Assembly (NCBI RefSeq): GCF_036030735.1
Contig: NZ_CP107928.1
Coordinates: 992,001-1,056,000 of the forward strand
DNA length: 64,000 bases
Direction: 5' to 3'
Origin: Streptomyces sp. NBC_00425
GTDB lineage: Bacteria > Actinomycetota > Actinomycetes > Streptomycetales > Streptomycetaceae
The position numbers and the translations under genes were made by a program. Below, piece by piece: positions 37,813-42,633 of the stretch (the stretch's first letter is position 1; every line of letters begins with the position of its first letter). The notes below the pieces were generated by a model. It had not been told where the DNA came from, searched no databases, and worked only from the letters and a program-made list of their open reading frames with translations.

Positions 37813-40758
37813 TCAGCGCAGCGTGGGGACCGCTCCCGCGTCGACGTACGCCACCTCCACGCCCGGCAGGCCGGCGGACCACCGGCCGGCCATGTCCGCC
37901 AGCCGCTCCGCGCCGGGCGGCGTGCGTCCGAGCCCGATGACGTAGCGCGCGCCCGTGGGCTCCCCGGCGGACGCCGGCGCCGGGGGCAACTGCCTCGGCC
38001 AGGCGTGCGCGTCCTCCACCCCCGTCTCCTCCAGCGCCGTGAGCAGCGCGCGCAGCCGTCCTCGTACCCGCCCGTTCAGCTCGTCGAAGTCCCGCGTCCG
38101 CCGCCCCCGCACCGTCACCACGGCCCAAGCCGCGTGCCGCCGATGCAGGGGCGGCGGGGACAGCAGCGCGGGCCATGGATCGGCGCCGGACCGGGCGGCG
38201 TCCTCCACCGTCTCCCAGGCCCGGTAGAGCTCCCTGCTCACCAGGTCCCGACCCCGCGGGCCGACCTGTTCGGTGCAGGACCGCACGGGTGCGGCGGGCG
38301 TCAGCACGGTGAGGGCGGCGTGGTTCTGGTGCGCCTGCGGCGGGTCGTGGCGCAAGTGCGTCCTGGCGGTTCCGCGCCCGTCCCCGGTGAGACCGACCGG
38401 CTCGCGCCAGTCCCATGCCGCCCAGGTCCCGAAGAACCGTCGCAGCAGCTCAGCAGGGTCCGACACGCCGGGCGACCGACAGACCGTGTGCGCCGCGAGC
38501 ACCGCCCACGCCACGCCGGGCAGGCCGCCGAACGGTGCTCCGTCCAGTCCGCGGGCCCTCGCCCACGCCTTGACGCCCCGGGCCAGCTCCACGAAACCCG
38601 GCAGGCCGTGTGCGCCCACGGCCGCCAGGACCGCCTCCGCGTCGGACACCGAGCTCAACGCGATCGCCGCGGCCTCGCCCAGCTCGGCCCGCCGGGGCAG
38701 TGCTTCCGCCGCCGGCATCGCTCCCGTGGCGACGACCACCAGGTCCACGTCCAGCCCTTCGACGTGGAACCGCAGTCCCGGCACGCGCGCGCCGACGACC
38801 TCCCGCATCCGTGCGGCGTGCGGCAGCGCGGCCACCACCCGCTCCCGCACCGCGGCGAGTTCCACGGTGCCGGGCAGCGCCGCGACGATGTCCAGGTCGG
38901 CTCCGGCGAGGGCGCAGCCCATGCGCCGCGAGCCCGCGAGGTGGACGACGCCCTCACCGAGCGCGTCCGCCAGGCACCGCAGGACGTGCTCGGCCGCCGG
39001 CTCGTCCGCAGCCGGCCGGACGCTCGCGCCGGCCGCGGGCGAGGCCCAGTCCTCCCGTCCGCGGTCGGGCCGGCCGAGGTCCGGCTCGGGTAGCCACCGC
39101 ACCTCGCCGGTGCCGAGGGCGACCGTGGCGCGCGGTCGCATCGGTTCGTCGCCCCGCCGGGACAGCAGGACGAGTTCGCCGACGCGGGCGGTCATCGGGG
39201 AGAGTCGCCTCGCGCAGTCGGCGGCGACGTCGTGCGGATCGCCGGTCCGGCCGAGGCTGAGGTGCGGGGTGAATCCGTCGTGGCGTCCACGGCAGCGGGG
39301 AAATCGCCGTACGAGCGCCTGCCACAGCTGCGCCCACGGCGTCGCGTCGTCCGCCGCCGGGTCCAGCCACACCGTGGCGTCGCGCCCGTGGGCGAAGGTG
39401 TGCAGTCCCTCGAGCCGTGCCGTGAACGGCTCGACCTGTGCGGCGGCCGCGGCGAGCAGCGGGGCCGCCCGCTCGAAGTCGGCCTCGGGGACGAACCCGA
39501 ACAGCACGTTGACGTGCGGCGGCCAGCGCCGGATCTGCACGTCGTGGTCCCGGCGCACGTCCTGGATCGCCGGCCACAGCTCGCGCGGCGGCACCCACGC
39601 CAGTGCCGTACGCGGCGTCGGCTCGATGTCGAGGACGTCGACGGGCGGGTCGACGCCGCAGTACAGGTCGGCGGCGACCCCGTAGTGGTCGGAGACGAAC
39701 AGCCCTTCCGGGGTGGGCGTGGTGCCGAGCAGCGTCGCCCCGGTCACGCGCGGGCCGCCGGCGGGGCGGACGAGGACGCGGTCGAGCCGGGAGACGCGGC
39801 CGGACAGGGAGGAGACGGCGGCGAGCGGGTTGTCGACGGGGTCGAAGGTGGGCGAGTCGTCGTGCGGGCCGTGGGCCTCGGTCCAGGCGTCGAGCATGCC
39901 GAGCGTGCGCGCCGGGCCCGGGCCGCCGTCGTTGAAGTCGCCGACCAGGACCAGACCGCCCGTCACACCCGCCGTTCCCTCGGCGAGACCGGTGAGTTCG
40001 GCGGCGCGCCGGGCGGGCCCCTCCTCGGAGTGGTCGCTCGTCAGATGCGTGGCGGCCACCGTCAGCGGTCCGGCCGCGGTGTCCACGACGACGGCGGTGA
40101 CGGCCTTGTGGCGGCCGAGGACGTGCAGGGCGGCCTCCCGCACCGGGAGCCGGCTGAGCAGCAGCAGACCGCAGTCGTCGACGTCCTTGCCGTAGGGGTC
40201 GGCGCCGAGGATGTAGTGGGCCCGGACCCAGGACGCCTCCAGGAGCATGGTCAGCAGCCCCGCCTCGACCTCCTGCAGGGCGATGACGTCGGCGTCCGCG
40301 CGCTCGAGCGCGTCGAGCAGCAGCGGGCGGCGCAGGGCGGTGTCGATGCGGTGGCTGTCGTAGCGGTCCCAGAGCGTGTTCCAGGTCAGCACCCTGATCC
40401 GGTCGCGGCCCTGCTCCCCCTGGGCGTGCGCCGCGGGGCGCCACCGTCCGGCGGCCGCGTCCCACGCGTGCGGCGTGCGCGCAGTGAAGAAAGGCGCGCG
40501 CAGCCGGCGTGCCTCGCGGACCCGGCCGGCGCCGGAGGCGTCGACGCGGTCCACCCCCGTGGCGCGGTCCCACACGATCTCGCCGTCCGCCTCGACGAAC
40601 AGCACCCGGTGCCAGGGGATCTCGCCGCCCGGCACGAACGTCGCCAGCGGCACGCGCTTGGGCGCGGCGCCCCGCTGGTGGACGCCGAACACGAACCGCG
40701 CGGGGTCGAACCGCGCGTCCCAGCGCACCTGGTGGTAGATCTCCTCGCTGGTACGCAT
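37813..40758 (-). CDS. Multidomain RNA repair protein: DUF504, EEP phosphoesterase, 2H phosphoesterase, poly(A)-polymerase-like nucleotidyltransferase
   Basis: 981 residues, cytoplasmic. Residues 1-~80 are DUF504 (MJ1316 type; [20 protein letters not shown]), thought to recognise RNA cyclic-phosphate ends. ~120-368 is an EEP phosphoesterase: [17 protein letters not shown] (Glu163), GDFND (~273-277), SDHYG. ~405-560 is a 2H phosphoesterase/2'-5' ligase-like domain with PHVNVLF and PHLSLGR; the first motif has Asn where Ser/Thr is usual. ~585-840 is a poly(A)-polymerase-like nucleotidyltransferase with GS(609-610), DLD(621-623) and a later DVD. The remaining ~140 residues may bind RNA. Start at the ATG at 40758, which overlaps the RNA ligase stop by one base (TGATG). 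The longer frame upstream reads through the ligase gene and is rejected. Confidence 0.9.
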
Positions 40759-42542
40759 CAGGCGTCCTCCCCCTCCAGTGTGCCGTCGCGGTCCTGCACG
40801 GTCCCGTCCGCGCCGACGTACCAGGTGCGGTGGGCCTGGCCCGGGTAGGGCGGCACGAACCGGCGCAGTTGCCCCGCCAGCACGTCCGACGGCACCGGAT
40901 GCGCGCGGGTGGCGTTGCGCCGTCCCAGCTCGTCCTCGTCGGCGAGGACGACGACATGGGTGACCAGCGCGTCGCGCCGACGCGCCACGGCCTGGACCAG
41001 GGAACGCTGCTGCGGGTTGAGCGACGTCGCGTCCCACACGACCGTGCCGCCGGCCGCGAGCGCTCCGTCCAGGCGGTCCAGTCCCTCCCGCAGCACTTCC
41101 CCGTTGGCCTTCTGATCGGCCCGCGAGCCGCGCGCCGCACGCAGCGCGTCCAGCTCGACGCGCGCCGACACGCCGTCGAGCCGCGCCGCGAAGGCGCTCT
41201 TGCCGCTGCCGGACGGGCCCACGAGGTGCACCAGCCGGGGGAAGTCCCCGTCCCGCCAGCGCCAGGTCGACGCGACGGCCTCCTCGACGGTGCGGATCCG
41301 CCCCCGAGCGTACGTCTCCCGGGTCTCCGCCCAGCAGCGGTCCGCCGCCTCGCCGCGGATGCCGTCCCGCGCCAGCGCCGTACGCAGCCCGGACTGCAGG
41401 GGCGCGAGCGGAGCATCGACGAGCAGCCCCGCCTCCTCCGCGTGCAGCGCCGACCACTCCACCTGTTCGCGCGCCGTCCGGTCGTCCCCCGCGGCCGCCG
41501 CCGCGACGGCGTGCAGCACACCCAGGTCGGCCGCGAACGACATCCGTACGAGCCCGGCCCGCCGCTCCGCGTCGGGGTACGGCCTTTGCAGTGCGGTGTG
41601 CAGGCCCACCAGGTCGGCGACGCGCCTCGCCAGCGGCACCCCCAGGGGGCCGGCGGCCCTGCGCATCAGCGACGCCCGCGGTGTGCGATGCAGCAGTGCG
41701 GCGAGCACCCCGGCGAGAAGGGCGTCCCCGCCGCGGCCGAGCGCGGCCAGCCGCGCGCTCGTCTCGGCGGCCGCCTCCGCCTCCGCCTCAGCGGCTGCGG
41801 CTGCGTGCGCACGGGCGTCCGGGTCGCCGTCCGCGTCGCCGTGGGCGCTCCGCCCTCGCACGTACCGGGCCAGTGCCCTCGCGTCCGGGTCCGCCCCGGA
41901 CCGCACGGCCCACAGCGCGGCCCGCGCGCCGAGGCCGTTCTCCACGACGGCCGCGTGCATCCAGTGGGTGTCCGTGGTGACGTGTCCCGGCCGTACCCAC
42001 TTGGCGATCCGTCCGGCGAAGTCGTCGCGTGCGAAGCCCTCGACGGTGCGTACGACGTATCCCTCCTGCCGCCCGGTCTCCACCCGCAGGCGGCGCAGCG
42101 CGCGCTCGTCGAACACTCCCCGCCACAGCACCGGCGGCGTCGGCACGCCCAGCTCGCGCAGGAACCGCACGGTCTCGTCCCAGCCCAGACACCGGTCGTG
42201 CTCGTCCCACACGGAGAACCCGTAGAAGTAACCCTCCAGGTCGTCGTACGGGATCGAGTGCCGCGCGTACATGTTCTCCCCGCACACCCGCCAGCCCGCC
42301 GGGATCCGCGCCCCCACCCGCCCCTGCAACGCCTTGACCCACGTTCTCGACGGATGGTGCGCCGAGTCCACGGACCGCGCGTGCAGCCCGTCCGCGTACA
42401 GCGTCGTGTTCTCCCCGTCGAGTTTCTCGGTGACGACGACTTCCCGCCCGGCGAGCCCGCTCAGCCCACCGGCCCGGACATCGTCTGATGACATGCCAGG
42501 TGACCAGGGCAAATGAGGGGTTCGAGGGTAGGAGGCACGCAT
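40758..42542 (-). CDS. RNA ligase with C-terminal polynucleotide kinase domain
   Basis: 594 residues. N-terminal ~210 residues form an Rnl-type RNA ligase: motif I EKLDGEN with nucleophile Lys40, GENMYARHS and YFYGFSVWD (motif III region), QEGYVVR (motif IV) and IAKWVRP (motif V). A central ~200-residue Ala/Glu-rich helical region is not recognised. Residues ~435-594 are a P-loop kinase (VGPSGSGKS at ~442-449, [20 protein letters not shown]). By family it phosphorylates 5'-OH ends and seals 3'-OH/5'-P RNA. Start at 42542, where [12 protein letters not shown] matches the expected ligase N-terminus; a TATAGT sits 7 nt before the ATG. Coupled to the downstream gene by TGATG. Confidence 0.9.
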
Positions 42543-42547
42543 GCGGG

Positions 42548-42553
42548 CCACTA
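42548..42553 (-). promoter_or_regulatory. Candidate -10 of a leaderless promoter for the RNA repair operon
   Basis: TATAGT on the minus strand, 7 nt before the ligase ATG, so transcription would start at or next to the A of ATG. No ribosome site lies between. No clear -35 is visible, so an alternative sigma factor or an activator may be involved. Confidence 0.55.
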
Positions 42554-42633
42554 TAGGAGCGCCGAAACACCGCCCTCCATCGGATTTACCGGACGCCCCG
42601 TCGGCCCATCGGCAGAGGGAAGCGGCCTGCGGG

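Follow-up and report, generated by a model that had tools for sequence, protein, structure and literature searches.

A candidate RNA repair operon of Streptomyces sp. NBC_00425 that pairs a DRB0100-type ligase-kinase with a four-domain end-processing protein

The 64,000-nucleotide window analyzed here, positions 992001-1056000 of the 9.8-Mb one-contig genome of Streptomyces sp. NBC_00425, contains a two-gene operon that probably encodes a heal-and-seal RNA repair system. Gene 1 (42542-40758; minus strand, as for all operon features given below) encodes a 594-residue protein in which an RNA ligase, a degenerate HD region and a polynucleotide kinase are joined, and gene 2 (40758-37813), present as a single copy in the genome, encodes a 981-residue end-processing protein of four domains. 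Both genes had been described in an initial annotation made from the sequence alone, and its coordinates and residue numbers were all correct on re-check. At the junction, ...GCCTGATGCG, the TGA of gene 1 and the ATG of gene 2 overlap by one base (TGATG, 40756..40760), as annotated, and the translational coupling proposed on that basis is upheld; the identical 1-base overlap is found in 36 of 62 two-gene loci (61 loci plus the window), and in 58 of the 62 the spacing lies between -14 and +10 bases. The nearest named relatives of the operon are mostly from Streptomyces, and homologues at E<=0.001 number at least 1204 for the poly(A) polymerase (PAP) part of gene 2 and at least 1447 for gene 1, given which the gene pair is not a chance pattern. 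The two proteins, their active-site residues, their coupling and their co-inheritance are established by sequence, and from these we infer the steps of repair. RNA repair was already the reading of the annotation, of which the domains, residues and coupling are confirmed, while the heal-and-seal function is the best reading of them.

Residues 1-204 of gene 1 (41931..42542) form a nucleotidyltransferase domain of the DRB0100 type, with a Pfam match to RNA_ligase (PF09414) at residues 33-183 (E 1.1e-35), a fold resembling that of the Naegleria RNA ligase (Foldseek E 3.1e-5), and 58% identity over 204 residues to Deinococcus radiodurans DRB0100, with which it has K40 in common. In an alignment of 40 hand-selected gene 1 proteins, K40, D42, G43, E44 and N45, together with E160 and K181, are invariant (40/40), and this conservation and the PF09414 match support the annotation of an RNA ligase with Lys40 in KLDGEN (codon at 42423..42425) as its nucleophile, the predicted adenylated residue; both marks of a DRB0100-type ligase, a nucleotidyltransferase domain and K40 within KLDGEN, are present in gene 1. 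Here and below, the role of each catalytic residue is that known from T4 Pnkp, PAP and ligase work. DRB0100 itself forms a lysine-AMP adduct, and the K40A substitution abolishes adenylation, according to PMC1997131.

The C-terminal residues 433-594 (40761..41246) constitute a P-loop 5'-polynucleotide kinase, with a Pfam match to AAA_33 (PF13671) at 437-565 (E 5e-22) and with G445, K448, S449, D465, R468, D504, R542 and R546 invariant in the same 40 proteins, which bears out the annotated fusion of a 5'-kinase to the ligase; the P-loop kinase residues expected of a DRB0098-like HD-Pnk are likewise all in place. The nearest solved structure is the Pnkp kinase of bacterial RNA repair of the C. 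thermocellum type, the structural alignment matches listed for gene 1 covering about residues 428-594, and the match to the NCBIfam model bacter_Pnkp is confined to the kinase part and scores far under the model's cut-off. The kinase half shares 43% identity over 163 residues with DRB0098, a 5'-kinase according to PMC1997131.

Between ligase and kinase lies a mostly helical region (residues 205-432; 41247..41930, the helices being predicted) in which the profile search found no Pfam family, HD included. When this region is aligned profile to profile with the HD parts of four Deinococcus kinases, E is 1.2e-9 if the shared linker is included; once the linker is left out, the hhalign score is 43.2 (E 6.6e-6), these E-values being those of single comparisons between thin alignments (Neff about 2). 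As controls, the reversed alignment scores 14.8, 20 column shuffles score at most 17.8, and the ligase and kinase regions score 22.9 and 12.3; a narrower cut of the middle region, 240-408, scores 35.7 over 96 columns. The comparison points to a probable HD phosphohydrolase remnant that has lost its HD doublet: H285 is present in 33 of the 40 gene 1 proteins and is followed by D in only 6, and other HD dipeptides in the region occur only in single rows or in pairs of close relatives. Since the doublet of HD-Pnk is not conserved in these 40 proteins, gene 1 is not classed as an HD-Pnk, although the domain homology is retained. It looks like a fused ligase and HD-kinase in which the phosphatase has decayed, and in view of this decay 3'-end healing has probably moved from the HD domain to the phosphoesterases of gene 2. 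Both the degenerate HD domain and the kinship with DRB0100 and DRB0098 had been missed in the initial annotation.

On the D. radiodurans plasmid, the neighbours of DRB0100 are DRB0099 (PARG, PF10021) and DRB0098 (HD plus AAA_33), the DRB names being assigned through the paper and gene order, as the plasmid record bears other tags. According to PMC11833690, DRB0099 belongs to the DRB0100 operon, and bacterial PARGs strip RNA and DNA phosphate ends of ADP-ribose. Adjacent ligase and kinase genes are found on three further Deinococcus plasmids, and 74 records of the plasmid collection match gene 1. Gene 1 is thus related in its ligase, kinase and HD region to the Deinococcus DRB0100-DRB0099-DRB0098 set (ddrP ligase, PARG-type macrodomain, HD plus kinase), but in this operon a single protein holds both ligase and kinase, the HD doublet has been lost, neither protein contains a PARG domain, and there is an additional four-domain partner that contributes PAP, EEP and 2H. 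In D. radiodurans MP1, a second RNA ligase (342 residues, OB-fold plus RNA_ligase; L087:11839-12867) lies about 2 kb from DRB0098, and we take this to be DraRnl/DRB0094.

Gene 2 carries DUF504, EEP, 2H and poly(A)-polymerase-like domains in its single chain, as annotated, and all four Pfam matches exceed curated cut-offs. Its conservation was assessed in 62 hand-selected proteins, 29 of them actinobacterial and 33 found via a Calothrix query (cyanobacterial, acidobacterial or unnamed). The annotation had made its reading depend on assignment of the ligase and nucleotidyltransferase domains by profile search and on the presence of catalytic residues in alignments; both domains are assigned, and the residues are present (K40 in 40/40, the gene 2 active sites in 62/62). 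The MJ1316/DUF504 domain (residues 1-65; 40564..40758; PF04457, E 2e-17, 64.1 bits against a cut-off of 26.3) has H50 and R51 invariant in all 62 proteins. By analogy with its family, it is a predicted binder of 2',3'-cyclic RNA ends; as PMC6514570 relates, the family's authors describe MJ1316 as a reader of such ends that is fused to RNA repair domains.

The EEP phosphoesterase follows at residues 124-358 (39685..40389; Exo_endo_phos, PF03372, E 1e-16), and its catalytic set (N, E, H, DxN, D, SDH) is complete, with N127, E163, H238, D274, N276, D326, D357 and H358 invariant in 62/62. It has these residues in common with the EEP enzymes ANGEL2 and TDP2. Its nearest solved relatives are TDP2 structures (profile E 1.8e-19; Foldseek E 3.7e-11), to which it is nearer by sequence than to the solved CCR4-type enzymes; the matches to CNOT6L and nocturnin are weaker, and no ANGEL2 chain is among the matches listed. 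ANGEL2 is reported (PMC9525292) to hydrolyse 2',3'-cyclic phosphates. The 2H phosphoesterase (HVN...HLS; residues 390-538; 39145..39591; 2_5_RNA_ligase2, PF13563, E 8.4e-32) has H415 and H499 invariant in 62/62 in the multiple alignment, with motifs of the Hx(T/S) type, the first mostly HVN or HIN (N in 48/62, T in 14/62) and the second HLS or HLT; at L061 the pairwise alignment gives H415I, which is discounted because the multiple alignment shows H. Among the 62 two-gene loci, the 2H domain is missing from four (L070, L072, L073 and L075), which requires at least three changes on a tree built without the 2H columns, and the EEP residues are present in all 62; 2H is therefore, judging from these sequences, dispensable, and EEP is not. 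Short stand-alone MJ1316-2H proteins of about 300-370 residues (L081 and L082) also occur in Streptomyces, plasmids included, and their make-up presumably resembles that of human LENG9.

The C-terminal domain of gene 2 (residues 585-981; 37816..39006) is a poly(A)-polymerase-type nucleotidyltransferase of the eukaryotic kind. PAP_central (PF04928) matches at 724-866 (E 1e-15), human PAP gamma is matched at E 4.6e-25 by sequence and 9e-68 by profile, and the fold matches bovine PAP 1f5a (Foldseek E 3.2e-19). G609, S610, D621, D623 and D672 are invariant in 62/62, so that the GS...DxD...D triad and the central domain of eukaryotic-type PAP are both present, and by sequence and fold the domain can be placed with the canonical eukaryotic PAPs, a specification beyond the initial annotation. 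It is like PAPOLA/PAPOLG and Pap1 in triad, central domain and overall fold, but it is fused to end-cleaning domains and its pocket is altered. We take a lysine of PAP and bovine Y237 and N239 to be ATP/base-pocket positions; the lysine is kept as K730, while Y237 and N239 correspond to D739 and A741 in 29/29 actinobacterial rows, and the other 33 rows have the pocket N in 32 and the Y in 17. Among the loci, L053 has G at position 741. On account of these replacements the domain is named PAP-like rather than a strict poly(A) polymerase, and because D739 and A741 stand in place of presumed base-contact residues, the nucleotide preference of the actinobacterial domain may differ from ATP.

The two genes are inherited together. 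In the contig collection, the two genes are adjacent in 61 of 69 loci, in addition to the window, and the eight exceptions comprise three without gene 1 (L023, L036 and L064), two at contig edges (L062 and L083), the two MJ1316-2H loci (L081 and L082), and L084, in which gene 1 is mostly deleted and MJ1316 is missing. Path lengths of the gene 1 and gene 2 trees are correlated (r = 0.90 over 1711 pairs, uncorrected for species kinship). In genome searches that scored the best few candidates per genome, 56 of the 150 genomes of the genus sample match gene 2, 32 of them by MJ1316-EEP or EEP of the gene 2 family; the remaining 24 genomes have only short 2H or MJ1316-2H proteins and were left out of the counts. 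Gene 1 is matched in 103 genomes, of which 31 hold the ligase and 72 only weak kinase-like stretches (in one case also with a 31-residue ligase stretch). Ligase and MJ1316-EEP occur together in 30 genomes, gene 2 only in two (G085, and G058, which has MJ1316-EEP without PAP), and the ligase only in one (G050, 82% complete, where it lies at a contig end). Identical match coordinates indicate that G085 and the genome of L036 are probably one strain. Genome search found no gene 1 in the genomes of L023 and L064, with the positive control L021 detected; the genome of L036 yielded nothing beyond a weak kinase-like match.

All three orphan loci carry D623N in the PAP domain, to which L036 adds D672G (pairwise alignment), and retain intact EEP, 2H and MJ1316 residues; the PAP triad is intact in 62/62 gene 1-bearing loci (61 plus the window). 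Because the triad is mutated where gene 1 is missing and the other sites are intact, the pattern suggests that the polymerase serves ligation. The orphan strains offer a case in which end cleaning and sealing are naturally uncoupled.

More widely, gene 2 is patchy in Actinobacteria, with matches in 6 of 396 genomes of the phylum, three of them strong, and the PAP central domain exceeds its cut-off in 3 of 392 phylum genomes, in each case within the gene 2 protein, with matches below the cut-off in two further genomes; among the control genomes the count is 0/14. A protein encoded on a conjugative Calothrix plasmid shares the four domains of gene 2 and their order, at 28.6% identity, and a query with this protein found 197 proteins, the named ones among the 120 listed being cyanobacterial except for one from an acidobacterial metagenome-assembled genome. 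In G012, gene 1 appears as two pieces 2.8 Mb apart; the one at 8.84 Mb covers residues 1-343 and the one at 6.01 Mb, next to gene 2, residues 345-589, an arrangement due either to an inversion or to an assembly error.

In the mechanism that we propose, MJ1316 would bind a cut RNA whose 3' end is a 2',3'-cyclic phosphate or a 3'-phosphate, and EEP, with 2H as a dispensable helper, would strip the phosphate to leave a 3'-OH, to which the eukaryote-type polymerase could optionally re-add nucleotides. The kinase would phosphorylate the 5'-OH, and the DRB0100-type ligase, adenylated on K40, would join the ends; the polymerase step would be tied to sealing, and the cleaning part could persist without the ligase. 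A bolder reading, itself doubtful, is that such a system restores lost nucleotides, with refilling just before sealing, a preference other than ATP in Actinobacteria, and 3' healing moved to EEP and 2H. If this is true, the refilling pathway would mend RNAs robbed of bases by toxin or oxidative damage, beyond simple cuts.

Several points weigh against a heal-and-seal system. PMC1997131 reports no DNA or RNA ligation by DRB0100 under any condition tried, and no DNA ligation when the three operon proteins were combined, and because DRB0100 gave no ligation, sealing by a DRB0100-type ligase is unproven; disruption of DRB0100 leaves D. radiodurans fully radiation resistant and without a radiation phenotype (PMC1978522). 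The nearest solved relatives of EEP, the TDP2 enzymes, act as 5'-tyrosyl-DNA phosphodiesterases rather than as cyclic phosphatases. Identity among the three orphans is 81-89%, and their flanking genes are alike, so they count as one event, and in the decaying operon of L084 (7487-10483), with the ligase internally deleted and the kinase and MJ1316 missing, the PAP triad is intact. Near the Calothrix gene 2, no ligase was found in the 6 of 22 neighbours that were profile-searched.

That DRB0100 forms lysine-AMP without ligation, and that its authors left capping open (PMC1997131), would suit a gene 1 nucleotidyltransferase that is not a ligase and instead adenylates RNA 5' ends or proteins, in an operon that modifies or protects RNA ends; we consider this unlikely in light of the RNA_ligase family match, the fold match to Naegleria RNA ligase and the fusion to a 5'-kinase, an enzyme that makes the substrate of a ligase. 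DNA-end repair, as first proposed for DRB0098-0100, in which kinase, TDP2-like EEP and ligase would close DNA breaks, draws on the gamma induction of the Deinococcus operon (PMC1997131 and PMC1978522) and on the closeness of EEP to TDP2 by sequence and fold. The same texts, however, give DRB0100 without DNA ligation and a knockout that is fully radiation resistant, and such a role is very improbable here. MJ1316, 2H and canonical PAP, moreover, belong to what are generally known as RNA-acting families.

Two further alternatives stay within RNA repair and concern individual steps. EEP could be a CCR4-like 3' exonuclease that trims damaged ends, with 2H alone opening cyclic phosphates, as its weaker matches to CNOT6L and nocturnin might indicate; this is a reasonable possibility, if short of probable, and it has to contend with the loss of 2H in 4/62 gene 1 loci (at least three tree changes) and the presence of the EEP residues in all 62, from which it follows that in those four loci 2H is not the sole route for cyclic phosphates. 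Joining could also consist of healing and sealing only, the polymerase tail serving to mark or protect failed products or to stabilise RNA. PAP enzymes normally add non-templated tails, and among solved structures poly(A) polymerases come nearest, but decay of the triad with loss of the ligase fits a sealing-linked step better, albeit in one lineage, and we regard repair without refilling as doubtful.

The 2016 work of Burroughs and Aravind is said to cover MJ1316-linked repair and the broader ways in which ligases, nucleotidyltransferases and end-healing enzymes are combined. Of the known systems, Pnkp-Rnl-Hen1 of the C. thermocellum type has the same heal-and-seal logic and the kinase domain closest in structure, but neither Streptomyces protein has a Hen1 methyltransferase or metallophosphatase Pfam domain, and the operon is not of that class. 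The MJ1316-linked RNA repair systems, according to PMC6514570, likewise fuse MJ1316 to RNA repair domains. MJ1316-linked repair is thus already known, and the component domains are recognised in the public database names of the relatives, "RNA ligase family protein" for one gene and "poly(A) polymerase" or "RNA repair domain-containing protein" for the other. New, as far as the open-licence literature searched goes, are the kinship with DRB0100 and DRB0098 and the accompanying decay of the HD domain, the decay of PAP in strains that lack the ligase, the dispensability of 2H and a conserved promoter. DRB0100/ddrP, which adenylates and for which no ligation was found, gains a close relative with a predicted end-processing partner, and the missing ligase activity therefore becomes directly testable. 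A eukaryotic-type PAP inside a bacterial RNA repair protein that is common to Actinobacteria and Cyanobacteria also bears on the origin of eukaryotic PAP.

Upstream of gene 1 lies a promoter-like element, TCCGATGGA-N20-TATAGTG (42549..42584), that is conserved in relatives. TGGA-N19/20-TANNGT occurs in 35 of 59 gene 1 upstream regions, against a mean of 0.045 and a maximum of 1 in 200 Markov shuffles, a count that is not an independent test because the motif was derived from the same regions; a version with the longer left half WTYSGNTGGA occurs in 26/59 (null 0). The motif spans Streptomyces, Kitasatospora and Streptosporangiaceae. In the window and six relatives the -10 hexamer TATAGT begins 13 bases before the ATG, a position that suggests a leaderless gene 1 transcript, and at the other motif-bearing loci the -10 lies about 33-47 bases upstream of the ATG. 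A regulon sharing the element was considered and rejected, as the pattern hits only the operon in its own genome: across the 9.8 Mb a related pattern matches once, at the gene 1 promoter, in a coarse test in which the backward control pattern also matched once, and of 10 relatives searched with a stricter pattern, three gave the operon alone and seven gave no match, although these too hold the operon.

In the window, a ROK regulator gene lies upstream of the operon on the same strand, and the other neighbours encode a cytochrome P450, a YnfA-family protein, a LacI-type regulator and ABC transporters; no tRNA or Rfam family exceeds its threshold in the window. The initial annotation had suggested that the damage repaired is inflicted by toxin RNases, a link that finds no support in the neighbourhoods of 70 loci, a weak negative that comes from rough gene calls, without profile searches of the relatives' neighbours. 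No toxin was recognised among the seven window neighbours searched, the AAA_21 matches being ABC ATPases. Apart from the two genes and the open reading frames opposite gene 2, the only neighbour families found in more than 11 of 70 loci are ribosomal proteins of the S10 cluster. The S10/L3 ribosomal-protein operon adjoins in 14/69 loci (L026, L029, L030, L035, L038, L039, L041, L043, L044, L050, L065, L069, L073 and L084), five of them also near EF-Tu. The tree includes 13 of these, all within a single 14-row clade, and since their label needs only two changes, the neighbourhood looks like one insertion, vertically inherited, and was rejected as a functional link.

Among 50,697 phage records there is no match to gene 2, and of seven viral-contig stretches that matched a pattern not one could be confirmed, so phage carriage of gene 2 was rejected. 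Phage relatives are limited to the ligase half, with 32 records matching over approximately residues 1-214 of gene 1, the best 20 of which have 39-52% identity and are each longer than 200 kb (for example L086:4989-5639). Membership in a defence system was also rejected, no PADLOC family giving a convincing match (best E 0.0078, in the P-loop region only). On the Calothrix plasmid (L085:11531-18219), gene 2 stands beside a dynamin-like GTPase and a protein of RNase T plus AAA/STAND-like make-up on the opposite strand, in what looks like a defence neighbourhood.

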